NCBI GenBank assembly: GCA_913031435.1 | Contig: CAJWFD010000013.1 | Location: 1-54,331, forward strand | Origin: an uncultured Cryomorphaceae bacterium | GTDB lineage: Bacteria; Bacteroidota; Bacteroidia; Flavobacteriales; Schleiferiaceae | DNA: 54,331 nt | Direction: 5' to 3' | Part shown: piece by piece, positions 26,863-42,639 of the stretch | Layout of the letters: each line of letters starts with the position of its first letter | Numbering within the stretch: the stretch's first letter is position 1 | Notes under the pieces: model-generated | Told to the model about the DNA's origin: nothing | The model's database searches: none | Seen by the model: the letters and a program-made list of their open reading frames with translations, nothing else | Translations under genes and position numbers: made by a program

Positions 26863-26878
26863 AGTTTCACGTGAAACG
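26863..26878. promoter_or_regulatory. parS site 1 (ParB-binding centromere-like site)
   Basis: aGTTTCACGTGAAACg: a perfect 14-bp palindrome (26864-26877) matching the bacterial parS consensus TGTTNCACGTGAAACA at every position except the two outermost bases. It occupies exactly the gap between the mnmG stop and the methyltransferase start. ParB binds such sites near the origin to segregate chromosomes. parA and parB are not in the window. Confidence 0.85.
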
Positions 26879-28732
26879 TTATCTACCCATATACACCAAC
26901 AGCACATGAATGTCGCTTTGACTTATGCCGCTAATTCTTCCTGCTTGAGCTATTGTAGCTGGTCTAATCATTTCTAACTTATCTCTTCCTTCATAGCTTA
27001 GGCCTTTAACTTTTAAATAATTAAAGTTTTCAGGGATTTCTTTGTCGTTTAGTCGCTTCATTTTAGCCACGTTATCGCGCTCTCGTGCTATATACCCTCC
27101 GTATTTAATGTCTATCTCTAATTGCTCTATGACTTCTTCGCTCCACCAACCATGAGTTTGATAGGACTCTTTAAAGTCCTTCAAATACACGCCAGGTCGC
27201 GCAACTAGTTTATTGGTTTTTGTCTTTTCCTTGGCTAATTTTTCTTCCTTGCCTTTTAAAAGACTGTTTATAGTGTCTAGTGAAAGGCTTTTGTCTAATT
27301 CTTTCTGTCCTTTTAATATTTGCGCCTGCTTAAGAGCTACCGCCTTGTTTCTAGCGTCACCCGCGAGCCCAATTCCATAACCTAAAGCGGTGAGCCTTAT
27401 GTCTGCGTTGTCCTGTCTTAGCAAGAGCCTGTACTCAGCTCTTGAAGTAAACATTCTGTACGGCTCTTCCGTACCCTTGGTAATTAAATCATCTATCAGC
27501 ACTCCTATATACGCGTCTGCCCGTCCTAAAACAAACGGTGTCTCTCCTTTAACTTTGCGCGCAGCGTTAACACCCGCCATAAGCCCTTGACAGGCTGCTT
27601 CCTCGTACCCAGTTGTGCCGTTTATTTGACCGGCAAAATACAGTCCACTAACAAGCTTAGTTTCTAAGGTGTGTTTAAGTTGTGTTGGTGGGAAATAGTC
27701 GTATTCAATAGCGTATCCTGGTCTAAAGAACTTCGCGTCCTTAAAGCCCTGCACCTTGCGCAATGCTTCATGCTGAATTTCAATAGGCAGCGATGTGGAG
27801 AAGCCGTTAACATATACCTCTACGGTGCTCCAGCCCTCTGGCTCCACAAAAATTTGATGTGATGATTTCTCGGAAAACCTGTCAATCTTATCCTCTATGC
27901 TTGGACAGTATCTTGGCCCCGTTCCTTTGATGGCCCCGTTAAACAACGGGGATCTGTCAAAGCCTTTTTTTAGTGTATCGTGTACCTCTTGAGAGGTGTG
28001 TGTAATCCAGCAACTCCGTTGTTTTTTAAGCTTGTTGTCACCCGTAAAGCTAAATTGACCAGGGTGTTCGTCACCCGGCTGCTCCTCCATTACGTTGTAG
28101 TCTATGCTCCGTCCATCTATTCTCGGAGGGGTGCCTGTTTTCATTCTTCCCGCCTCAAAGCCAAGCTGAATCAATTCCTCTGTTATTCCTGTACTAGCTC
28201 TTTCTCCTGCCCTTCCTCCGCCAAAGTTTTGATCACCAACATGAATAAGTCCGTTCATAAAAGTACCGCTGGTTAGGATGACTGTCTTTGCGTGAAACTC
28301 AAGCCCAAGTGAAGTCTTAACGCCGTGAATGGTTCCGTCAGAAACAAGTAAACCAGACACCATGTCTTGATACATACTTAATCCATGGGTTGCTTCAAGT
28401 TGCTCTCTCCAGTATTGAGCAAAGAGCATCCTATCACTTTGAACGCGTGGGCTCCACATTGCCGGACCCTTGCTTTTGTTCAGCATCCTAAACTGAATCA
28501 TACTCTTATCTGTGATCACCCCGGAACCTCCACCAAGCGCGTCTATTTCTCTTACAATTTGCCCTTTAGCAACACCGCCCATAGCGGGGTTACAGCTCAT
28601 CTGAGCTATACTTTGCATATTCATGGTTATCAGCAAAACGCTCGATCCCATTTTTGCAGCGCAATAAGCAGCCTCGCAACCAGCGTGGCCGCCTCCTACC
28701 ACTATAACGTCATATGTTTCGTCTAATACCAT
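26879..28732 (-). CDS. mnmG: tRNA uridine-5-carboxymethylaminomethyl modification enzyme
   Basis: 617 residues, FAD-dependent partner of MnmE in modifying wobble U34 of several tRNAs (formerly GidA). The dinucleotide-binding motif VVGGGHAGCEAA lies at the N-terminus. The FAD and active-site Cys regions SCNPAMGGVAKG, PRYCPSIEDK and GTTGYEEAACQG are all present. The C-terminal helical domain binds MnmE and tRNA. In many bacteria this gene sits next to oriC, which fits the flanking parS site and the nearby DnaA-box region. Three bases separate it from ybeY. Confidence 0.97.
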   Translation of the reverse strand: MVLDETYDVIVVGGGHAGCEAAYCAAKMGSSVLLITMNMQSIAQMSCNPAMGGVAKGQIVREIDALGGGSGVITDKSMIQFRMLNKSKGPAMWSPRVQSDRMLFAQYWREQLEATHGLSMYQDMVSGLLVSDGTIHGVKTSLGLEFHAKTVILTSGTFMNGLIHVGDQNFGGGRAGERASTGITEELIQLGFEAGRMKTGTPPRIDGRSIDYNVMEEQPGDEHPGQFSFTGDNKLKKQRSCWITHTSQEVHDTLKKGFDRSPLFNGAIKGTGPRYCPSIEDKIDRFSEKSSHQIFVEPEGWSTVEVYVNGFSTSLPIEIQHEALRKVQGFKDAKFFRPGYAIEYDYFPPTQLKHTLETKLVSGLYFAGQINGTTGYEEAACQGLMAGVNAARKVKGETPFVLGRADAYIGVLIDDLITKGTEEPYRMFTSRAEYRLLLRQDNADIRLTALGYGIGLAGDARNKAVALKQAQILKGQKELDKSLSLDTINSLLKGKEEKLAKEKTKTNKLVARPGVYLKDFKESYQTHGWWSEEVIEQLEIDIKYGGYIARERDNVAKMKRLNDKEIPENFNYLKVKGLSYEGRDKLEMIRPATIAQAGRISGISQSDIHVLLVYMGR

Positions 28733-29115: not shown

Positions 29116-31677
29116 CTACTTATTCTGCTTTAGAATAGGTAAAGGTAATGCCGATCTTGGATATTCTCTTACTTTGAAACGCTGCTCTTCTCCACCCATA
29201 AAAACATCCTGTTTAGGCTCGTTTGCATCGCGTTGATTTCCGGTTTGATTCTTGTTATATACCGCCTCTAGTGTTTCCCAAAGCCTATCATTAAACCCCT
29301 TGTTGTCCTTAGATAAAACGCTGGTGTTGAACAACAGCTCTTCCTTAAGTTTTTTTATTGCTTCCTCCAGAGCCTTTGAGGACGCGTTGTTAGACAACTT
29401 GTTCTTAGCATTGTCTAATATTTTTAAAAGCTCCTTCGTGGAGCCTCCTGGCCCTGTTGACCCGGGCTTAACCCCTTGTTCACCTTCCTTGTTTTCACTT
29501 GGTGTCCTAGTTTTACCTTTTTTTCTTCCGTTAGGCAGCTGACCTTGCTGACCATTGCCTTGCTTACCCTCTTTACCCTGGCCTGACTTGCTCGGTTTAC
29601 CAACAGTGCCCGGTTTCCCTTTTTTACACTTATTGTTGGCGTTAGCCAGCGCCTTTTTCTCGCTCTCTAATATGAAATACAACGTCTCTGACAGTTGGTT
29701 TAACGCGTTAACCACATAACCCATAGTGCTCATGCTTTGTTGGTAGCTGTTTAGCTCATCTTTAAAAGAAAAAAGTGCGTTATCAAGGTCCTCTCTGTTT
29801 GCTGCCAAAACCTGATTCAGCGCCCGGTCTGAAACCATAATAACATCTACAGTATCCGATATAACCTGTTCTAGCGCAAGCAGTGCTCTTTGTTGTTTAG
29901 CGCTTTGCTCCTGCGGATCAACACTCATGCGTTCTTGCTGTACACTTACAGACCATGATCCTTTTAGAAGTCTTTTTAAACGCTCAACGTTGTCGGACCG
30001 AACGCTAGCCATCTCTTCATTTAATATGTCCTTTAATTTATCAGCCGCTTCTTTTGCTTTTTGAGCTCGTTCTTCCCCGGTTTCTGCAATTTTTAAAACC
30101 GCACCGGCAGCCTCTTTTATATTGTTTTGCTCCGTGGTTTCTAGTATACTCTTGCTCACCTCAAACATTGCTGTGTCTAGTGATTTATCCTGCCCTGTGT
30201 CCACGGTTTCTAATAACCCTATGAGCTGTTCTGTTTTCCATAAAACATCAAGTTCGTTTAAAAGGTCTTCCTTGGTTTCGTTTGGACGCTCTATTTTTTT
30301 AACGTCTGTCAAGTCATTTTGCTTCTTTTCTTCTTTTTGCAGCTCCTGCATAGTGCTGCGCTTAAAAGTATTTGGTTTAGTTTTTTTCAAACCTAAAAGT
30401 TGTTCCGCCTTGCTTGGTATACTGCTTTCAGTGTTTGACAACAGTTCAGACGCTAGTGGATTTGGTTTTTTAATCTCAAGTGTTGTTAGTTGGTTAAAGC
30501 TGTCCCAGGCCGTCACCTCCATTTTAACCATGTTGCGCCATTTAATCTCAATCTCGACCTCACTTCTATTAACCGTTGTGGGGTCTTCTTTATTCAGCCG
30601 CAAGCCCTTGATCATAAAGTCGTCCTTAAGGCTATATCGAACAAACCCTAGTTCATTCTCTAAAACATCTATGACTGGTGGTGTATCTTTTATGATATGT
30701 ATTGGAATCTGTAAGGCTGTTGTTTTGTGATATATAAATACCGCGGTGTCTAAGTGGTCAACCACAAAAGTTTCTTGTATTTTATGTGTTCCACGTGAAA
30801 CTTTAATTTTAAACCATTCCGTCAGCACTCCCTTAACACGAAGCTTCACTAAAGACCCTTCGTATGCCGTGATGGTGTCGTTCACGTTGTATCTAGTCAG
30901 ATTTAAATATTGAGGCGGTGTTATTTCAGCGGACCAACTTGTGAGCAGCGGTATGCTATCGCAAATAATATATTGCTCCCTAACTCTTCTGTGTAGATAT
31001 TCCCAATATAGAACGGTATCTTTTTCAATTACAAACGCACCATTAACTCCTGTGCTCAGGAAGCCTTGAGAGAGTATAGGCGCTATGTTGTAGCGCTCTT
31101 TGTAATGAACATGTACTGTGTCTTTGATAATAGAGTCGTTGAATGAAGACCTAAGACCTCCAAACAACAATTCCTTTGAGCTCTCCATTACTGAGGTACG
31201 AGGAAGTAGATAAACTATACACGCTAACCCAAACAATAGAGCAATGACTTTTTTAATATTAAACCGTTTTTTTAGTGACGGTAGTGTTTTGGTGAGTAAT
31301 AGTTCCGAATTCCTTTTTACTTTTTTAGAAGACCACGTTCCAATATCTCCTTCTTTTTTTAGCTGATTAGCTTGGGTTAATAATCCCTTGTCATACTTAC
31401 TGAGTAAGTAACCTAGTTTATGATCAGATAACCATGGTGTTAAACCAGCTAATAAAAAGTATCGTATTGGAAATAAAATAGCGGCAAGTAATAATAATAA
31501 TCCTGCAACGACAGAGAGTAATCTAATTACCTTTAAGTCGGGTAGGTATAGAGAATTATACCCCACGATTAATAATATTATTATCGTTGCTAAGAAAACA
31601 AATAAAATACTGAAATACAGTGACTTACGTAAAAATAAAGCTTTCGCAAACCCTTTTATGTGTTTGTTTTCTTTCAT
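29116..31677 (-). CDS. large DUF4175-type membrane protein
   Basis: 853 residues. Three membrane helices near the N-terminus (about 17-38, 46-77, 142-160) precede a periplasmic beta-rich part (about 165-400). A long charged, coiled-coil-forming helical region (about 430-660) follows. A low-complexity stretch rich in Lys, Gly, Gln and Asn (about 675-745) is followed by another helical segment. This matches the DUF4175 type found next to ybeY/mnmG in Bacteroidota. Function unknown; its architecture suggests an envelope scaffold. The coding sequence carries parS site 2. Its first 58 bases overlap the start of the divergent lipoprotein gene, and its 5' half is distinctly AT-rich. Confidence 0.8.
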   Translation of the reverse strand: MKENKHIKGFAKALFLRKSLYFSILFVFLATIIILLIVGYNSLYLPDLKVIRLLSVVAGLLLLLAAILFPIRYFLLAGLTPWLSDHKLGYLLSKYDKGLLTQANQLKKEGDIGTWSSKKVKRNSELLLTKTLPSLKKRFNIKKVIALLFGLACIVYLLPRTSVMESSKELLFGGLRSSFNDSIIKDTVHVHYKERYNIAPILSQGFLSTGVNGAFVIEKDTVLYWEYLHRRVREQYIICDSIPLLTSWSAEITPPQYLNLTRYNVNDTITAYEGSLVKLRVKGVLTEWFKIKVSRGTHKIQETFVVDHLDTAVFIYHKTTALQIPIHIIKDTPPVIDVLENELGFVRYSLKDDFMIKGLRLNKEDPTTVNRSEVEIEIKWRNMVKMEVTAWDSFNQLTTLEIKKPNPLASELLSNTESSIPSKAEQLLGLKKTKPNTFKRSTMQELQKEEKKQNDLTDVKKIERPNETKEDLLNELDVLWKTEQLIGLLETVDTGQDKSLDTAMFEVSKSILETTEQNNIKEAAGAVLKIAETGEERAQKAKEAADKLKDILNEEMASVRSDNVERLKRLLKGSWSVSVQQERMSVDPQEQSAKQQRALLALEQVISDTVDVIMVSDRALNQVLAANREDLDNALFSFKDELNSYQQSMSTMGYVVNALNQLSETLYFILESEKKALANANNKCKKGKPGTVGKPSKSGQGKEGKQGNGQQGQLPNGRKKGKTRTPSENKEGEQGVKPGSTGPGGSTKELLKILDNAKNKLSNNASSKALEEAIKKLKEELLFNTSVLSKDNKGFNDRLWETLEAVYNKNQTGNQRDANEPKQDVFMGGEEQRFKVREYPRSALPLPILKQNK
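30787..30802. promoter_or_regulatory. parS site 2, inside the DUF4175-type gene
   Basis: TGTTCCACGTGAAACT matches the parS consensus TGTTNCACGTGAAACA at 15 of 16 positions, differing only in the last base. It lies within coding sequence, as parS sites often do, about 3.9 kb from parS site 1. Confidence 0.85.
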
Positions 31678-32291
31678 TGTTTCTTTCCAGCTGTAGTGAG
31701 TTAACCTCGCTTAAAACAAACCTACCTAATTATAAAGTGTGGACGCAGGGTAAAACAAAAAATCCAACAGTGCTTTTTTTTAGAGATCCAGCAGTTCTTG
31801 TTAATGACTCTATTGCCCGTAATTTAACTAAGGTGTACCACGTTATTAATATAGAGAAGTCATATAGTAACCCTTTATTAGTGCTTAATGAAGACCATCC
31901 TAAACTAAGGGGAATCGAGGGTTTAGAAATATATAAACAGTTGTCTAGCCAATTTATGATCCACCACATAGCAGCGTCTGGCACTGAGGCTACGGTTATT
32001 ACAACATGGTTTACTAGTTTACCTTTTAAAAAAGCACTTTTATATCCATATTACAGTGGTTCTTTAATAGATCATATAAAAACAGCAATAGGAACAGGGT
32101 CGTTGTATTTAAAAGCTTATAAACCTGTGTTAACACCTGTAGAAATTTATACACTGTTTCATACAACACCTCTTCCTTCAGGTCAATTAGGTATCTATTC
32201 TTATCGTTTTATAGAAGCGTTATGGCGGATAGAACCTGATTTATTATTAACCCCTTATAAAGGGGTTGTTGAAACTTATATTCTTGATTAA
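31620..32291 (+). CDS. lipoprotein of unknown function
   Basis: 223 residues from GTG 31620, the only start that gives a complete signal peptide; the lipobox is FLSSC (Cys25). The mature protein is soluble and AT-codon-rich with no recognised motif (segments such as VLFFRDPAVLVND and YHVINIEKS). Its first 58 bases are antisense to the 5' end of the divergent DUF4175-type gene, and its stop overlaps the convergent rpiB stop by four bases. A domain of stand-alone periplasmic lipoproteins is plausible, but I cannot name it. Confidence 0.65.
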   Translation: MTYVKIKLSQTLLCVCFLSLFLSSCSELTSLKTNLPNYKVWTQGKTKNPTVLFFRDPAVLVNDSIARNLTKVYHVINIEKSYSNPLLVLNEDHPKLRGIEGLEIYKQLSSQFMIHHIAASGTEATVITTWFTSLPFKKALLYPYYSGSLIDHIKTAIGTGSLYLKAYKPVLTPVEIYTLFHTTPLPSGQLGIYSYRFIEALWRIEPDLLLTPYKGVVETYILD

Positions 32292-32719
32292 ATACAAGCG
32301 ATTTTATCTACTCGGCGTTTGTGTCTACCTCCCTCAAACTCTGTATTAAAAAACGACTTAATAATTGCTTTAACCTCTTCCGTTGTTAAAAATCTAGCTG
32401 GTATAGAAATTATATTAGCGTCGTTATGTTGCCGCGCTAAACAAGCTATTTCTGGCAACCAACACAAAGCACCTCTTATGTTTTGATATTTATTTACCGT
32501 CATATTAATTCCGTTTCCTGAACCACATATAACAATTCCTAAATCTACTTCATTAATAGAGACGGCTTGAGCCACTTTATGGCCATAATCAGGATAATCG
32601 ACACTATCAGTTGTGTACGGCCCTAAATCAAGCATACTTAACCCCTCCTTTGATAATGATTCAATAATTACTTTTTTTAAATCAACTCCTGCGTGATCAG
32701 ATCCAATAGCTACTTTCAT
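32288..32719 (-). CDS. rpiB: ribose 5-phosphate isomerase B
   Basis: 143 residues from ATG 32717-32719 (MKVAIGSDHAG); the frame is open to 32794, but the family always starts at this motif. Interconverts ribose 5-phosphate and ribulose 5-phosphate. Asp8/His9 and the catalytic Cys65 (ICGSGNG) are intact. It reads away from the 401-bp gap that resembles a replication origin. Its codon usage is AT-rich compared with genes in the left half of the window. Confidence 0.95.
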   Translation of the reverse strand: MKVAIGSDHAGVDLKKVIIESLSKEGLSMLDLGPYTTDSVDYPDYGHKVAQAVSINEVDLGIVICGSGNGINMTVNKYQNIRGALCWLPEIACLARQHNDANIISIPARFLTTEEVKAIIKSFFNTEFEGGRHKRRVDKIACI

Positions 32720-33120
32720 TGTTCTTATATTTAACTGCAAGTTCGTAATAGTTGTTAATAACCATGGTTGTAAAAGTGAATAACCTATTAACATAAATTA
32801 AAAACTTCCCCTTGTTTAATTCAATAATTTTCCTAATTCAAAAAATCCTTGATAATACTGTTATGAATAAGGAAAACTTTTAAATTATTGGTGAACAAAA
32901 AAATCACTACTATACACAGTGATCTTATAAAATACTTTCAACATCTTACTGTTTAAAACCCTATCAACACTGTGTATTTATTTATTTAAACCATTCATTA
33001 CTAGCACTTCTATATTAATCACAACTGTGTATAAAGCGTTAATATTGTTAATATCACAAGCTTATTATTTAAGTTACCACGGTTACTAACACCCTATTAT
33101 TATTACTATATATCTTTTAA
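32720..33120. other. candidate replication origin (oriC) region
   Basis: This 401-bp gap has no gene and is very AT-rich. It carries a perfect DnaA box TTATACACA (minus, 33026-33034) and close variants: TTATTCACT (minus, 32776-32784), CTATACACA (plus, 32910-32918) and AAATACACA (minus, 32971-32979). The 9-mer ACTGTGTAT occurs three times, once inverted (32912-32920, 32969-32977, 33024-33032). Tandem TAT/TTA triplets lie at 33095-33113, a possible unwinding element. Two parS sites lie 2-6 kb to the left and mnmG 4 kb away. Function is inferred. Confidence 0.6.
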
Positions 33121-33687
33121 ATGAATACTTATATATATAAAGGAGACTGGCAAATTGTTGACAGCGAAGATATTTATAGTAATCCTTGGATTTCTTTAAC
33201 CCATCATTCTGTTGTAACCCCAGGAGGGACAAATGGAATTTACGGAGAGGTTATTTTTAAAAATATAGCTATTGGGATTATTCCACTAGATGATCAAGGT
33301 TATACCTGGCGTGTTGGACAATTTAGATTTCCAATTAATTCCTACAGTTGGGAAATACCAGAGGGTGGTGGGTTATTAAAAGATGATCCTTTATCAAGTG
33401 CTCAAAGAGAATTAAAAGAAGAGGTGGGATATACTACTGAGGTGTGGGAGTTATTTTTAGAGATGGACTTAAGTAATAGTGTGATAAATAAGCGTGCTCA
33501 CGTCTATTTTACGGAAGGTTTAACGTTTTTTGGTACATAGCGTGAGGACACGGAAAATATATCCTTAGAACGCTTACATTTTAGTGAATTACACCAGCAA
33601 GTATTGAATGGTGAAATAAGAGATGCTATTTCTATTGCTGCGGTTTTAAAATTAGGTTTACTAAAACCAAATTTATTAAATAGATAG
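33121..33687 (+). pseudogene. NUDIX hydrolase interrupted by an in-frame TAG
   Basis: The first 139 codons (33121-33537) encode a NUDIX domain, followed by TAG at 33538-33540. The same frame then continues for 48 codons (REDTENISLERLHF to LLKPNLLNR) to TAG 33685-33687. The tail has the typical NGEIRDAISIAAVLK ending of such proteins, so the two halves form one protein of about 187 residues. The Nudix box ends RELKEEVGY; its first Glu is Asp (KDDPLSS). Removing the tail would lose the last helices, so the product is probably inactive unless the stop is read through. TAG is a normal stop elsewhere here (pyk, cvpA). The 3' end overlaps the GSCFA gene by 12 bases. Confidence 0.75.
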
Positions 33688-34449
33688 AAAGTCTTTAAAT
33701 CTATCCATAACAACACTTATTGCTTTTTCATTTGGATGAGTTCCATTATTTTCTGAAAAAGAATAATCCCTTAACTCATCTGTAACTATTTCATAACTAG
33801 GAAAATAAAAACATTTATCTCTAAAAGATAATAATTTTTCTATAGAGGATCTTAATATAGATTTTCCTAAAAAGTTATCTACTAAACCAATTTTAGTATA
33901 ACGCACTGGACTTACTGTGAATATAATATTCCAATGCTTAGGTATTTTATTTAACACCTTTTCCCAAGCTTCAATTATTTCTTGTTGCGTCAGAATTCTA
34001 CGAGTAAAAAAATCTCCAGGTAGTTTATGACAGTTATTTACAATACGTCCATTTCTTTCCCAAGCATGTGCTGTACCAAATGATAATATCAATGTTACAT
34101 TTCCGTGAGATACATTTAAAAAGGAATTAAATAATTGTCTTTGATTGTTTATTTGAGCAAATAATAATTCCATAGAATCTGCTTGAAATTTATTACCTGC
34201 TGCAAGATGATGTACAGAGGATTTATATAATTCAATGGGTTCTAAAGAATATTGCTCATCTAACAACCAGTTTAATTGTTCTGAGATACTCACTGGGTTA
34301 AAACTAGTACCTAGTGGATTGTATTGATAAGGAATATTCCATGAAGACAAGGACGTTTTTAAATGACCAACAAAACAACTACCCAACCCTAAACATAAAA
34401 AAGGGGAGTCCAGACTAGGTCCGGCTCCCACTTTTACTTTTGTAATCAT
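33676..34449 (-). CDS. GSCFA family protein (SGNH-like hydrolase)
   Basis: 257 residues from ATG 34447-34449; an earlier ATG at 34473 would overlap the aldehyde dehydrogenase gene and adds a poor N-terminus. The family motif appears as LGLGSCFVGHL (about 20-30), holding the putative nucleophile Ser. TLILSFGTAHAW and NGTHPNEKA carry the likely Gly/Asn and Asp/His blocks. GSCFA proteins are common in Bacteroidota but uncharacterised; an esterase-like activity is inferred from the fold. AT-rich codon usage. Confidence 0.85.
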   Translation of the reverse strand: MITKVKVGAGPSLDSPFLCLGLGSCFVGHLKTSLSSWNIPYQYNPLGTSFNPVSISEQLNWLLDEQYSLEPIELYKSSVHHLAAGNKFQADSMELLFAQINNQRQLFNSFLNVSHGNVTLILSFGTAHAWERNGRIVNNCHKLPGDFFTRRILTQQEIIEAWEKVLNKIPKHWNIIFTVSPVRYTKIGLVDNFLGKSILRSSIEKLLSFRDKCFYFPSYEIVTDELRDYSFSENNGTHPNEKAISVVMDRFKDFLSI

Positions 34450-34456
34450 GATAGCA

Positions 34457-35998
34457 TTAAATATTGAATTCAATACCCTGCGCTAATGGTAAATCAATAC
34501 CATAATTAACAGTATTTGTTTGTCGCCTCATGTAAGCTTTCCATGCGTCAGAACCACTTTCTCTTCCACCACCGGTTTCTTTCTCTCCACCAAATGCACC
34601 ACCAATCTCAGCGCCAGAAGTACCAATATTAACATTAGCAATACCACAATCAGAACCTCTTTCGCTTAAAAATAAATTAGCCTCCCTAAGGTCACTAGTC
34701 ATTATCGCACTAGATAATCCCTGCTTTACGCTATTTTGAATAACAATAGCATCTTCTACAGATCCTGAATATTTAAGTAGGTATAAAATAGGAGCAAACG
34801 TTTCTCTCTGAACACTCTCGTAACTATTATCAGCTTCAATGATGCAGGGTTGGACATAATATCCTTGATCATAAATTCCACCAGACAAAACTTCACCACC
34901 ACATAAAACAGTACCGCCTTCTTTTTGGACAGCGTCAATAGTATGAAGGAAATTATTTATGGAATCTTGATCAATTAAAGGCCCTACGTGATTAGAAACA
35001 TCTAGTGGGTTTCCAATTTTCAATTGACCGTATCCTTGGATTAAAGCACTCTTTACTTTATCATAAACACTGTCATGGATAATTAACCTTCTTGTTGAAG
35101 TACAACGTTGACCACACGTACCTACAGCACCGAATATAGCACCGGTAATTGTAATTTTAAGATCACAACTAGGTGTAATAATTATAGCGTTATTACCACC
35201 TAACTCCAGTATAGATTTTCCAAATCTTTCCGCAACCTTAGCACCTACTATACGACCCATTCTTGTGGAGCCTGTGGCAGAAACTAAAGGTATTTTATTA
35301 TCCACTGTCATCCATTCCCCAACAGTATAATCTCCAGATACAATAGAGGATATACCTTCTGGTAAATTATTTGCAGCAGCTACTTTGTTCCATATATTTT
35401 GGCAAGCGATGGCGCATAATGGAGCTTTTTCGCTACCCTTCCAAACCACGGTATTTCCACAAACCAACGCAAGCGTTAAATTCCACGCCCAAACAGCTAC
35501 AGGAAAATTAAAAGCTGAGATAACCCCTACAACCCCTAACGGATGCCACTGCTCCATCATATTATGATTAGAGCGCTCACTTTTTATTGTTAATCCATAA
35601 AGCTGTCGGGACAAACCAACGGCAAAATCACAGATATCTATCATTTCTTGAACTTCTCCCAGGCCTTCTTGATAACTTTTACCCATTTCTAAAGAAACTA
35701 GAGCGCCCAACTGTGCTTTTTCTTCTCTAAGGGCATTTCCAAATTGACGGATGTATTCCCCTCGTTTAGGTGCTGGAATAGTTCTAAGTTCTTTAAAAGC
35801 AGAATCAGCTTTTTTAACCACCTCATCATATTGAGACTTAGAAGTAACACTAACCTTACCCAATTCTTTCCCATCAATAGGTGAAAATGAAGTAATCCAT
35901 TTATCAGTGCTCATCCACGAACTTCCTGTAGAGGTTCCTGGGTTTGTGGGCTGTAGGTTAAGTGAGTGAAGAATTTCTGATGGTGTGAAATTTGACAT
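34457..35998 (-). CDS. aldehyde dehydrogenase, ALDH7/antiquitin type
   Basis: 513 residues from ATG 35996-35998 (MSNFTPSEIL); the frame reaches 36040, but that extension is implausible. The catalytic pair is Glu265 (ILELGGNN) and Cys299 (GTCGQRCTSTRR), with the NAD-binding ATGSTRMGRIVG just before. The overall pattern (WHPLGVVGVISAFNFPVAVWAWN) is that of antiquitin, which oxidises alpha-aminoadipate semialdehyde in lysine breakdown. That substrate is inferred from the subfamily only. AT-rich like its neighbours. Confidence 0.9.
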   Translation of the reverse strand: MSNFTPSEILHSLNLQPTNPGTSTGSSWMSTDKWITSFSPIDGKELGKVSVTSKSQYDEVVKKADSAFKELRTIPAPKRGEYIRQFGNALREEKAQLGALVSLEMGKSYQEGLGEVQEMIDICDFAVGLSRQLYGLTIKSERSNHNMMEQWHPLGVVGVISAFNFPVAVWAWNLTLALVCGNTVVWKGSEKAPLCAIACQNIWNKVAAANNLPEGISSIVSGDYTVGEWMTVDNKIPLVSATGSTRMGRIVGAKVAERFGKSILELGGNNAIIITPSCDLKITITGAIFGAVGTCGQRCTSTRRLIIHDSVYDKVKSALIQGYGQLKIGNPLDVSNHVGPLIDQDSINNFLHTIDAVQKEGGTVLCGGEVLSGGIYDQGYYVQPCIIEADNSYESVQRETFAPILYLLKYSGSVEDAIVIQNSVKQGLSSAIMTSDLREANLFLSERGSDCGIANVNIGTSGAEIGGAFGGEKETGGGRESGSDAWKAYMRRQTNTVNYGIDLPLAQGIEFNI

Positions 35999-36099
35999 GT
36001 AGGTATAATTATGATTCGGTATAAAACTAAACATAATCAACCACTTCTGTTTTATTTAAAAACTTCAATTCAGGGTTTTTATTGAGAGGACCTAAGGCG

Positions 36100-36107
36100 T
36101 ACCTTTG
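36100..36107 (+). promoter_or_regulatory. candidate -7 element for metal ABC transporter genes
   Basis: TACCTTTG, exact TAnnTTTG match, 25 bases before ATG 36132. No convincing -33 element or metal-regulator operator was recognised. Confidence 0.4.
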
Positions 36108-39350: not shown

Positions 39351-40142
39351 CTACCAGGTTGCCTCTGGGTGTGTCCGTGCTAAGCTTTGCATTTCTGCAA
39401 GAATAAAACCAAGCTCAGAGGTGTGAACACCATACCTACCTCCAGTTTGCATCCAGAGTTCGGGACTAGGCATAATCAAAGTAGCTTCTTTAATAACCTC
39501 TCCTATTTTATGCAGCCAAACCTCTCTGAGAGACTCAAACCTCACAAAAGAATCGTCCAGTTGATCAAACATAGGGTGGGCTTCAAACAACTCACCAGAC
39601 CACATCCAAAGGCTGTTAATGCTTTGCTGCATTTTGTGGTGACTCTCTTCTGTACCATCGCCTAAACGAATAACCCACTCAGCGCTCCATTGGGCTTGGT
39701 AGGCAATCTCCTTTAAAGCCTTTTCTGCAACACCCGCGAGGGCTTTGTTAGAGCAACTACGGAGTTTATCAAAGAGGTAAAAATTAAAAGTATCGATCAG
39801 GAAACTTCGAGCAATAGTATCGCCCCAGTGACCGTTTGGCTGTTCGAGTAACAATGCGTTTCTGAACCCCAAGTGATCCCTGAAATAAGCCAGGGTATCT
39901 TCTGTGACTTCTCCACCTTCCATTTTAGCAAGCTCTTGGTACAACAAACGAGCTCTGCCTATATGATCTAATGAGGTGTTAATGATTGCGATGTCTTGCT
40001 CAAGCACAGGGCCCTTGGAACACCAGCTGCTTAATTGCTGCCCCAACATTAAGGCGTCATCTGCAAGAAAAAAGAAATACTCCTTGAGCGCTTCTTCTGA
40101 AGTAAAATCACGTTTTACTCCGTTTAACCAACCTCCTGCCAT
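39351..40142 (-). CDS. paaC: phenylacetyl-CoA epoxidase subunit PaaC
   Basis: 263 residues. Structural, non-catalytic partner of PaaA in the ring-1,2-epoxidase. It has the ferritin-like four-helix fold with ADDALMLGQQLSSWC near the N-terminus and DHIGRARLLY in helix 2; metal-binding glutamates are absent as expected. Follows paaB by three bases. No paaD follows: the operon ends here with a terminator. Confidence 0.92.
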   Translation of the reverse strand: MAGGWLNGVKRDFTSEEALKEYFFFLADDALMLGQQLSSWCSKGPVLEQDIAIINTSLDHIGRARLLYQELAKMEGGEVTEDTLAYFRDHLGFRNALLLEQPNGHWGDTIARSFLIDTFNFYLFDKLRSCSNKALAGVAEKALKEIAYQAQWSAEWVIRLGDGTEESHHKMQQSINSLWMWSGELFEAHPMFDQLDDSFVRFESLREVWLHKIGEVIKEATLIMPSPELWMQTGGRYGVHTSELGFILAEMQSLARTHPEATW

Positions 40143-40145
40143 GGC

Positions 40146-40433
40146 CTACATGTGTTGAACATCATCAGGGATGTCATAAAAGGTGGGGTGTCGGTATACC
40201 TTGTCATCGCTAGGGGTAAATAAAGCGTCTTTTTCATCAGGAGAACTAGCGGTAATAGATTCTGAAGGAACCACCCAAATACTTATTCCCTCAGAACGAC
40301 GCGTGTATACATCTCTGGCGTTTTTGATGGCCATATTAGAATCAGGAGCGTGCAAGCTACCTACGTGTTTGTGGGAAAGCCCGTTCTTACTTCTTAGGAA
40401 AACTTCCCAAAGCTTCCAATTTGTTGTGCTCAT
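40146..40433 (-). CDS. paaB: phenylacetyl-CoA epoxidase subunit PaaB
   Basis: 95 residues from ATG 40431-40433 (MSTTNWKLWEVFLRS); the frame is open to 40499, but that part overlaps paaA and is only basic filler. Small bridging subunit that joins two PaaAC heterodimers. The family pattern LWEVFLRSKNGLSHKHVGSL and the ARDVYTRRSEG segment are clear. Sixteen bases separate it from paaA. Confidence 0.92.
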   Translation of the reverse strand: MSTTNWKLWEVFLRSKNGLSHKHVGSLHAPDSNMAIKNARDVYTRRSEGISIWVVPSESITASSPDEKDALFTPSDDKVYRHPTFYDIPDDVQHM

Positions 40434-40449
40434 GGCGGTTTCTTTAGGT

Positions 40450-41406
40450 TTATGCTGCGGACGATTCTTTGTTTTTACGCGTTGCTTGTTTTTCAGCAAA
40501 CGCGCTGGCGGCTTCTCTCACCCACGCGCCATCCTCATGTGCTTTAACATGGTGGGCAATGCGTTCTTTATTACAAGGTCCGTTTCCCTTAACGACATCA
40601 TAGAACTCGTTCCAATTAATTTCACCAAAGTCATAGTGTCCGCGATCTTCATTCCAAACCAAGTCGTTGTCTGGAATAGTTAAGCCAAGATATTCGGCTT
40701 GAGGAACGGTTTTGTCGACAAACTCTTGACGAAGCGTATCGTTGCTTTTTCTTTTTATTTTCCAAAGCATGCTTTGCTCAGAGTTTGGGCTATTATCATC
40801 AGATGGGCCAAACATCATTAACGAAGGCCACCACCACCTATTCAAACTTTCTTGTGCCATTTCTTTTTGCTCAAGCGTTCCTTGAGTCAATTTCATAACC
40901 ACTTCGTATCCCTGTCGCTGGTGAAAACTCTCTTCTTTACAAATTTTAACCATAGCCCTGGCATAAGGGCCGTAAGATGTTCGCGTGAGCATTACTTGGT
41001 TTTGAATTGCAGCACCATCTACAAGCCAACCAATGGTTCCCATATCAGCCCAAGAAGGGGTGGGATAATTAAAAATCGAACTGTATTTTGCTTTTCCGCT
41101 CTGTAAATCGGCGATCATCTTGTCTCGTGGTTCCCCAAGCGTTTCGGCTGATGAGTAGAGATAAAGACCATGTCCGGCCTCGTCTTGAACCTTTGCTAGA
41201 AGGATTAATTTAGCACGTAAAGACGGAGCTCGGGTGATCCAATTTGCCTCTGGCTGCATCCCAATGATCTCACTATGAGCGTGTTGAGATATTTGACGTA
41301 TAAGTGTCTTGCGGTATTTTTCAGGCATCCAATCCTTTGGCTCTACCTTGTTTTCGGCGTCCACATAAGATTGGAATTTGTCTTCCAGCGATACATTCGT
41401 TCCCAT
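40450..41406 (-). CDS. paaA: phenylacetyl-CoA epoxidase catalytic subunit PaaA
   Basis: 318 residues, the diiron oxygenase subunit that epoxidises the ring of phenylacetyl-CoA. Iron ligands include Glu46 (HSEIIG), Glu76 and His79 (KVQDEAGHG), and the second pair in [10 protein letters not shown]. First gene of paaABC, transcribed leftward and divergent from paaE, with a 99-bp shared promoter region. A TAACTTTG element is on its strand. Confidence 0.95.
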
Positions 41407-41428
41407 GTTCTGTGTATTTGGTTGTCTA

Positions 41429-41436
41429 CAAAGTTA
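41429..41436 (-). promoter_or_regulatory. candidate -7 element for paaABC
   Basis: TAACTTTG on the minus strand, exact TAnnTTTG match 22 bases before the paaA start. No recognised -33 element at the usual distance. Confidence 0.35.
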
Positions 41437-41505
41437 AAACACAACGCGCTATATGGTGTTATGGTTTAGAAATGAGAACTACCTTTACACAATAACTTGA
41501 TATAG

Positions 41506-42639
41506 ATGCTGAAGTTTTTTAAGAAAAACAAAAAAGAAAAGACCTCTTTACTGGCCAATTCCAAAAAGTCCAGCGACACTAAATTTTACAAAATAAAGGT
41601 AAAAGAAGTGCGTCGCGAAACAGAGGATGCGGTGAGTGTTGCTTTTGAGACACCAGAAAACTTAATGTCAACGTTTGCTTTTATGCCGGGCCAGTACCTG
41701 ACCCTTAAGGCTAAGGTTAAGGGCGAAGAGCTTCGACGCTCATATTCTATATGCTCTGCGCCTCAGGAAGGAGAGCTTCGCGTCGCCATAAAACAGATAG
41801 AAGGAGGTAAGTTTTCTACCTACGCGAATCAAACCCTTAAAGAGGGAGATACACTAGAGGCTATGCCGCCAATGGGTAACTTTAAGTGGTCTCAAGGCGC
41901 AAAGGCCTCTCATCTTGTCGGCTGGGCTGCGGGCTCTGGAATTACCCCTATGATGTCTATCGCAAAAACAGTTCTGCAATCTGACAAGCACGGCACGTTT
42001 ACCCTTTTTTATGGAAACAAAAACAGCAACAGTATTATTTTTAAAGACGAGCTGGAAGACTTGAAAAATTCTTTTGTAGACCGCCTAGAGGTGCACCATA
42101 TTTTAAGTCGCGAAGACCAGGGCAGTGATGCGACTAAGGGCAGAATAGATGGAGAGAAAGTTAAAGCGTTTAACGATAAGTTTTTTGACGTTAACACCAC
42201 TACAGGCCATTACTTGTGCGGCCCTTTAGGAATGATAGAAAGTGTTACAGAAACACTTCAAGAGTTGGGCACATCAAAAGATAATATTCATTTCGAGTTG
42301 TTCAACACCACAGCCTCGCCTGACGCTAAACAGAAAGAAACACCATCAGCATCTTCTTCGGGGCTATCATCCGTTACCGTAGTGTTAGACGGAGAAGAAA
42401 CACATTTTGAAATGAAGGGCAATGAGTACCTTTTAGATGCTGCACTTGATGCTGGCGCGGACATTCCTTACGCGTGTAAAGGAGCGGTATGCTGTACTTG
42501 TCGCGCGAAGGTTTTAGAAGGCTCATCGGAGATGGTGATGAATTATGCCCTTGTAGATGAAGAGGTAAAGGAGGGTTATATACTAACGTGTCAGGCGCAC
42601 GCTACTAGTGAGAAACTGGTAGTGAGCTTTGATGAGTAA
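41506..42639 (+). CDS. paaE: phenylacetyl-CoA epoxidase reductase PaaE
   Basis: 377 residues; passes electrons from NADPH to the PaaA diiron centre. FAD-binding domain with RRSYSICSAP (about 74-83), NAD(P)-binding domain with GWAAGSGITPMMS, then a plant-type 2Fe-2S domain with the cysteine cluster CKGAVCCTC and a final TCQAHA. All cofactor motifs intact. Divergent from paaABC instead of following it. Confidence 0.93.
   Translation: MLKFFKKNKKEKTSLLANSKKSSDTKFYKIKVKEVRRETEDAVSVAFETPENLMSTFAFMPGQYLTLKAKVKGEELRRSYSICSAPQEGELRVAIKQIEGGKFSTYANQTLKEGDTLEAMPPMGNFKWSQGAKASHLVGWAAGSGITPMMSIAKTVLQSDKHGTFTLFYGNKNSNSIIFKDELEDLKNSFVDRLEVHHILSREDQGSDATKGRIDGEKVKAFNDKFFDVNTTTGHYLCGPLGMIESVTETLQELGTSKDNIHFELFNTTASPDAKQKETPSASSSGLSSVTVVLDGEETHFEMKGNEYLLDAALDAGADIPYACKGAVCCTCRAKVLEGSSEMVMNYALVDEEVKEGYILTCQAHATSEKLVVSFDE

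Follow-up and report, generated by a model that had tools for sequence, protein, structure and literature searches.

Where does replication of the chromosome begin in this uncultured Flavobacteriales bacterium, and is the long AT-rich gap between rpiB and a NUDIX gene its origin? The window, by which we mean the whole 54,331-bp stretch of DNA analysed here, is contig C13 of an assembly that comprises 66 contigs and 1,826,381 bases. A preliminary description had singled out this gap as a candidate origin on the basis of its length, low GC content, repeats and DnaA boxes and the nearby parS sites and mnmG, and had noted that dnaA is absent from the window. That observation was confirmed overall. 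The reading of the gap as an origin was supported as well, but the description had overlooked a DnaA-trio element, which is the most telling part of the locus. On computational evidence, the gap at 32720-33120 is very probably the chromosomal oriC of this bacterium.

The gap between rpiB and the NUDIX gene

The candidate oriC comprises the whole of the gap (32720-33120, 401 bp). On its left is rpiB, encoding ribose 5-phosphate isomerase B (32288-32719, minus strand, with its start at 32719; Pfam LacAB_rpiB), and on its right a NUDIX gene (33121-33540, plus strand, with its start at 33121; Pfam NUDIX). The GC content of the gap had been called very low and is 24.7% over the 401 bp. It had also been described as the only gap of more than 300 bp, and this proved correct for the window inside its two ends: three other apparent gaps between ORFs each hold small ORFs, one acpP-like, one atpE-like and one more that is a plausible gene. 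The density of GATC was of no use as a sign of an origin, with a single GATC in the gap.

Low GC content extends well past the gap into the neighbouring genes. Positions 31001-36000 have approximately 31-39% GC, compared with approximately 39-49% in the rest of the window, and the rpiB loci of 15 congeners are likewise AT-rich (28-36% GC). The NUDIX gene is truncated by an in-frame TAG at 33538-33540. Because the reading frame continues beyond this codon, and the ORF of the nearest congener, G020, is 188 amino acids long, either the copy in the window has been shortened or the TAG reflects an assembly error at one base. Farther to the right, the interval 39351-42639 appears by eye to encode phenylacetyl-CoA oxygenase-like parts and a ferredoxin reductase-like protein.

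DnaA boxes and a short repeat

Three copies of ACTGTGTAT had been reported in the gap. The window contains exactly three, all of them in the gap, at 32912 (minus strand), 32969 (plus) and 33024 (plus); together they span 32912-33032, within 121 bp. The number expected in the gap is 0.01, and none of 1000 simulated sequences reached three. Across the 1.83-Mb assembly there are 14 copies, compared with 5 for the reversed control, and among the other 11 no two lie within 25 kb of each other on one contig.

The claim of a perfect DnaA box was borne out only in part. The sequence TTATACACA is present at 33026-33034 on the minus strand, where it overlaps a copy of ACTGTGTAT, but at one position it departs from the usual consensus, TTATCCACA, and the window has two more copies of this 9-mer, at 1227 and 4515. 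Six further DnaA-like boxes in the gap have two mismatches to TTATCCACA. Three are on the plus strand: TTAATCACA (33015-33023), CTATCAACA (32961-32969), which adjoins the repeat at 32969, and CTATACACA (32910-32918), which overlaps the minus-strand repeat at 32912. The other three are on the minus strand: TTATTCATA (32862-32870), TTATTCACT (32775-32783) and TTATTAACA (32753-32761), the last being replaced by TGTGAATAA or TGTGTATAA in several congeners. These seven boxes with up to two mismatches compare with a mean of 2.04 in simulated sequences (p = 0.002), and the gap has in them the box cluster of a DnaA-dependent bacterial oriC. With up to one mismatch to TTATCCACA the gap holds one box and is not enriched (p = 0.149 by simulation), and when TTATACACA is taken as the consensus, enrichment in the gap is likewise absent (p = 0.117 and 0.132 by simulation).

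A DnaA-trio block at the NUDIX end

At the end of the gap nearest the NUDIX gene the order is TTACTAACA-CC-CTATTATTATTACTA (33083-33108), and after it comes an AT-rich run in which the NUDIX start codon lies. The first element, at 33083-33091 on the plus strand, is a weak DnaA-like box with three mismatches; alignments show TTATCAACA in its place in many congeners. The second, CTATTATTATTACTA at 33094-33108 on the plus strand, reads 3'-GAT AAT AAT AAT GAT-5' on the other strand. The consensus of the DnaA-trio is 3'-GAT-5' in the accessible portion of its description (PMC6669920). Since CTA and TTA triplets are 3'-GAT-5' and 3'-AAT-5' on the opposite strand, this run matches the DnaA-trio motif. 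The third element, at 33104-33141, overlaps the NUDIX start codon, is AT-rich in the congeners too, and is presumably the DNA unwinding element; an AT-rich region beside DnaA boxes is what a DnaA-dependent bacterial oriC has. Box, trios and AT-rich stretch form a conserved, putative unwinding block (33070-33142, plus strand), delimited by its match to profile R1 (see below); the E value of this match, 1e-18, includes the contribution of the window's own sequence to the model.

The trio run at 33094-33108 is the only one of at least five consecutive [CT]TA triplets in the window. By itself such a run is not rare, for the 1.83-Mb assembly contains three and its reversed control two. A published search rule for the DnaA-trio origin unwinding module (BUS) asks, in the part of the text available, for three or more trios separated by a spacer of 0-16 bp from a box with up to two mismatches (PMC8287927). 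The window has five trios and a spacer within these limits, but TTACTAACA, with three mismatches, does not qualify as the box. The full rule, with the strict [CT]TA pattern, is satisfied at the block by 7 of 16 sequences (the window and 15 congeners), and by 10 of 16 when three box mismatches are allowed; two further sequences of the 16 match the rule elsewhere in the gap. In simulated sequences, 0-9 of 300 per gap matched. The block in the window thus looks like a BUS, although it fails strict membership.

The genomes compared here show directly how the locus is built, that it is conserved and that it coincides with the skew switch in relatives. How it might function can be modelled on the corresponding module of B. 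subtilis. DnaA would bind the weak boxes arrayed along the gap together with a box-like pair at approximately 33074-33091, and from this pair a DnaA filament would load rightward onto the trios at 33094-33108. The filament would then melt the AT-rich stretch that overlaps the NUDIX start, and helicase loaded there would start two forks. ParB acting on two nearby parS sites may segregate the new origins. By analogy, the same steps would make the locus active in this species.

Conservation of the block and replacement of its neighbour

Sixteen congeners have a match to rpiB, and a match was absent in eight others. We compared the regions upstream of rpiB from 15 of the 16, leaving out G022, whose match is only 44% identical. 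The block was found upstream of rpiB in all 15 loci, at a distance of 332-356 bp there and in the window. It is most divergent in G015 and G006. Mean column identity is 81% in the block, compared with 66% across the whole gap.

The right-hand neighbour is less constant. No NUDIX ORF was seen at this locus in G003 and G015, and in G004 the NUDIX ORF is broken across two frames; the block is still present in all three. In five genomes from other genera, one of which (G049) belongs to another family, a MORN-repeat-like gene stands to the right and a similar block is kept. The MORN assignment is a Pfam MORN_2 match for G049 and sequence similarity, judged by eye, for the other four. The gene adjacent to the putative origin therefore appears to have been replaced, being a NUDIX gene in this genus (33121-33540 in the window) and a MORN-repeat gene in others (for example L082, 1581-2318).

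This replacement bears on whether the gap is instead a promoter or operator region for rpiB and the NUDIX gene, using DnaA as a transcription factor, with the origin elsewhere. DnaA does regulate some promoters, and the gap is common to two divergent genes. However, the block outlives its neighbour gene, being kept where the NUDIX ORF is missing (G003, G015) and beside the MORN-repeat gene, and a promoter-only role is disfavoured for that reason; a skew switch and parS sites at or near the gap also speak against it. We regard this explanation as extremely improbable.

Profile searches across genomes

Profiles made from the rpiB-adjacent sites were run over whole genomes. The first, R1, was built from 16 sequences and run on 60 genomes including this one. 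Its best match was the gap in all 16 genomes used to build it. Outside the genus, 12 genomes matched at E up to 0.1; location was checked in five of these (G049, G031, G030, G027 and G029; E 7e-7 to 0.02), and in all five the match is upstream of rpiB. The remaining seven matched with E values of 0.005 to 0.07.

A second profile, R2 (19 sequences, with those five added), was run on 88 family genomes including this one. At E up to 0.1 it gave 77 matches; 51 are oriented as expected and sit 256-567 bp upstream of rpiB, and the other 26 lie elsewhere. A match upstream of rpiB was obtained in 51 of 69 family genomes that hold rpiB; 18 of the 69 had no R2 match there. Among rpiB-holding genomes outside the R2 model, 33 of 51 match upstream of rpiB, including two congeners (G016 and G017). 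Of such genomes, 36 have at least one R2 match, and their best match lies upstream of rpiB in 31 and elsewhere in 5. The strongest match away from rpiB (E 3.5e-6) is in G079, which has two block matches on two contigs (C273, 40-113, the strongest one, and C41, 4780-4854), perhaps because a contig is duplicated or mixed.

Among named Bacteroidota, the best 80 of 587 relatives were searched at their rpiB loci. At E up to 1 there were 21 matches, and 20 of them, from 19 loci, were upstream of rpiB; two are on contigs that were already in the model, and many of the others were weak (E 0.01-0.9). The matching loci include those of Formosa, Ulvibacter, Kordia, Nonlabens, Chryseobacterium, Flavobacterium and Marinifilum, and 61 of these best 80 loci gave no profile match. 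Box density (up to one mismatch) in the named loci falls from 0.99 per locus in the 500 bp directly upstream of rpiB to 0.39 in the following 500 bp and 0.09-0.29 farther out; many loci are without any box upstream of rpiB. Counted from the rpiB start, the first 500 bp have a density of 0.69, perhaps owing to a conserved part of the gene itself.

GC skew in the window and in relatives

If the gap is the origin, cumulative GC skew had been expected to reach its minimum at about 32.9 kb in the window. In the window taken alone it did not; the minimum lies 16.3 kb to the right of the gap. Skew changes from -0.13 left of the gap to -0.04 on the right, where it is near zero. Because this genome is divided among 66 contigs, the proposed check on the whole chromosome was moved to relatives, and there the expectation held. 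In three single-contig chromosomes of the family, local cumulative skew, taken over 100 kb around the block, has its minimum about 170 bp from it (+170 bp from the match start in G027, +171 in G068 and +168 in G071).

On the scale of whole chromosomes, we sampled skew in 20-kb stretches of the single-contig genomes. In G027, 12 of 13 samples left of the block are negative, the exception being near the opposite point, and all 13 on the right are positive. G068 gave 10 of 11 negative on the left, again with the exception near the opposite point, and 9 of 9 positive on the right. The corresponding figures are 8 of 10 and 9 of 10 for G071, and 11 of 13 and 9 of 13 for G049, whose local minimum is 19 kb left of the block. 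In G031, of which 157 kb of a 197-kb contig was covered, the minimum is 3.6 kb left of the block. An upward jump in skew occurs at the gap in all seven long congener contigs: values run from -0.12 to -0.19 in the 5 kb on the left and from -0.00 to +0.04 in the 5 kb on the right, being positive in six contigs and about zero in G003. The GC-skew switch of a DnaA-dependent bacterial oriC is thus present in relatives.

In the same seven congener contigs the cumulative minimum falls 2.3-2.9 kb to the right of the gap, outside it, as might be expected if the origin were nearby, at the end of the aldehyde dehydrogenase gene near 36.0 kb. However, GSCFA and aldehyde dehydrogenase are encoded leftward here (33676-36040), an orientation able to displace the minimum. 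In the window, the ORFs on either side of 36040-36105 leave a space of 64 bp, which has no box with up to one mismatch, and the minimum within about 170 bp of the block in the three single-contig relatives also tells against this site. An origin near 36 kb is in our judgement very unlikely, and the gap itself remains the preferred location.

parS sites, mnmG and the distant dnaA gene

The parS sites of ParABS systems are GTTTCACGTGAAAC palindromes that lie close to the origin. The whole assembly has only two matches to GTTYCACGTGRAAC: an exact 14-mer at 26864-26877 and a parS-like site with one mismatch at 30788-30801. These had been described as flanking the gap. Both are indeed near it, but both are on the rpiB side, approximately 5.8 and 1.9 kb away. 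Of the 15 congener loci, 12 have a parS-like site with no or one mismatch at 1.48-1.50 kb beyond rpiB. Exact copies of the 14-mer were found in 26 of 60 genomes, nearly all within the genus; in G027 an exact site is 42 kb from the block. The gene mnmG is nearby, as noted before (26879-28732; Pfam GIDA), 4 kb from the gap.

The gene for DnaA itself lies outside the window, on another contig (C27, at 18717), in agreement with the earlier statement. It encodes a complete protein with the N-terminal, ATPase and helix-turn-helix domains (Pfam), so the initiator on which a DnaA-dependent oriC relies is encoded in this genome. The earlier suggestion that the origin would be unlinked from dnaA also stands: the two are on different contigs here, and dnaA is 1.57, 1.84 and 1.58 Mb from the block in the single-contig relatives G027, G068 and G071.

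An origin beside dnaA, as in many bacteria, would be the conventional choice. In an early survey, the available text of which gives the figures, 342 of 568 chromosomes had the origin adjacent to dnaA and near the skew switch (PMC2275245); an origin beside dnaA is common by this count, and since only 342 of the 568 had one, so is an unlinked origin. In this assembly, the 3.5-kb dnaA locus lacks exact copies of TTATCCACA, TTATACACA and ACTGTGTAT, has no parS site within one mismatch and gives no match to the block at E up to 5, and in the three single-contig relatives the same 1.57-1.84 Mb separates dnaA from the skew switch. We give an origin at dnaA hardly any credence, and return to the gap upstream of rpiB.

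In four single-contig genomes with the block upstream of rpiB (the three above and G049, where the distance is 1.37 Mb), dnaA is at 0.78-0.96 of the half chromosome. This is near the point opposite the putative origin, and dnaA would therefore be copied late. A terminus-proximal dnaA as a general rule was considered and rejected: with rpiB as a proxy for the origin, and across the 20 single-contig genomes with both genes among the matches listed, the separation ranges, as a fraction of the half chromosome, from 0.13 (G047) to 0.96; for 15 of these genomes the chromosome lengths are rounded or assumed (G276, for example, at 4.05 Mb). In nine genomes of one genus (g15) it is 0.38-0.52. Family f16 (for example G114, G119 and G124) has 0.6-Mb genomes that retain rpiB and show no DnaA match (E up to 1e-30) among the matches listed.

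Comparison with known systems

The analysis places the probable origin of an uncultured lineage in a gap of 400 bases and its likely opening site in approximately 75 bases. For many fragmentary Flavobacteriales assemblies the block upstream of rpiB could serve as a usable origin marker, for example in estimating growth rates from read depth. The more interesting aspects are the wide linkage to rpiB and the distance of dnaA, a distance that varies within the order. Tentatively, and at somewhat less than even chances, an rpiB-adjacent origin with a DnaA-trio block and a swappable right neighbour may be ancestral in much of Bacteroidota, with dnaA kept at a distance; late copying of the initiator gene would then uncouple its dosage from origin firing.

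The likeness to ParABS centromeres lies in the GTTTCACGTGAAAC palindromes near the origin, and the system is known here from these sites. Flavobacterial origins near mnmG have already been published, and this locus is one of that kind. In Mariniflexile litorale, the available text places the origin by mnmG, in agreement with GC skew, and finds that the position of dnaA does not fit the skew (PMC11278836; one figure legend there exchanges the oriC and ter labels). For Algorimicrobium, too, the accessible portion describes an origin predicted by mnmG, with support from skew (PMC12843772). These predictions, as far as the available text goes, name mnmG only, whereas the site described here is a specific gap, upstream of rpiB and 4 kb from mnmG, that carries a DnaA-trio block. 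Our literature search found no report naming rpiB as an origin neighbour, most subscription papers and DoriC being outside its range. An origin far from dnaA seems ordinary in this group. The rpiB arrangement is not universal in it, since in Blattabacterium, a flavobacterial endosymbiont without dnaA, the origin was placed in dapB by skew, according to the available text (PMC2768785).

The closest parallel is the BUS of Bacillus subtilis and others, as presented in the accessible parts of its descriptions (PMC6669920, PMC8287927). The block shares with it the order of box, short spacer, trios and AT-rich stretch, the orientation of these elements and the 3'-GAT-5' trio consensus. Unlike the BUS, the box beside the trios in the window has three mismatches, the origin lies away from dnaA, and the element is known here by its sequence. 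The trio module seems to have been retained in this lineage, in which origin and dnaA are far apart.
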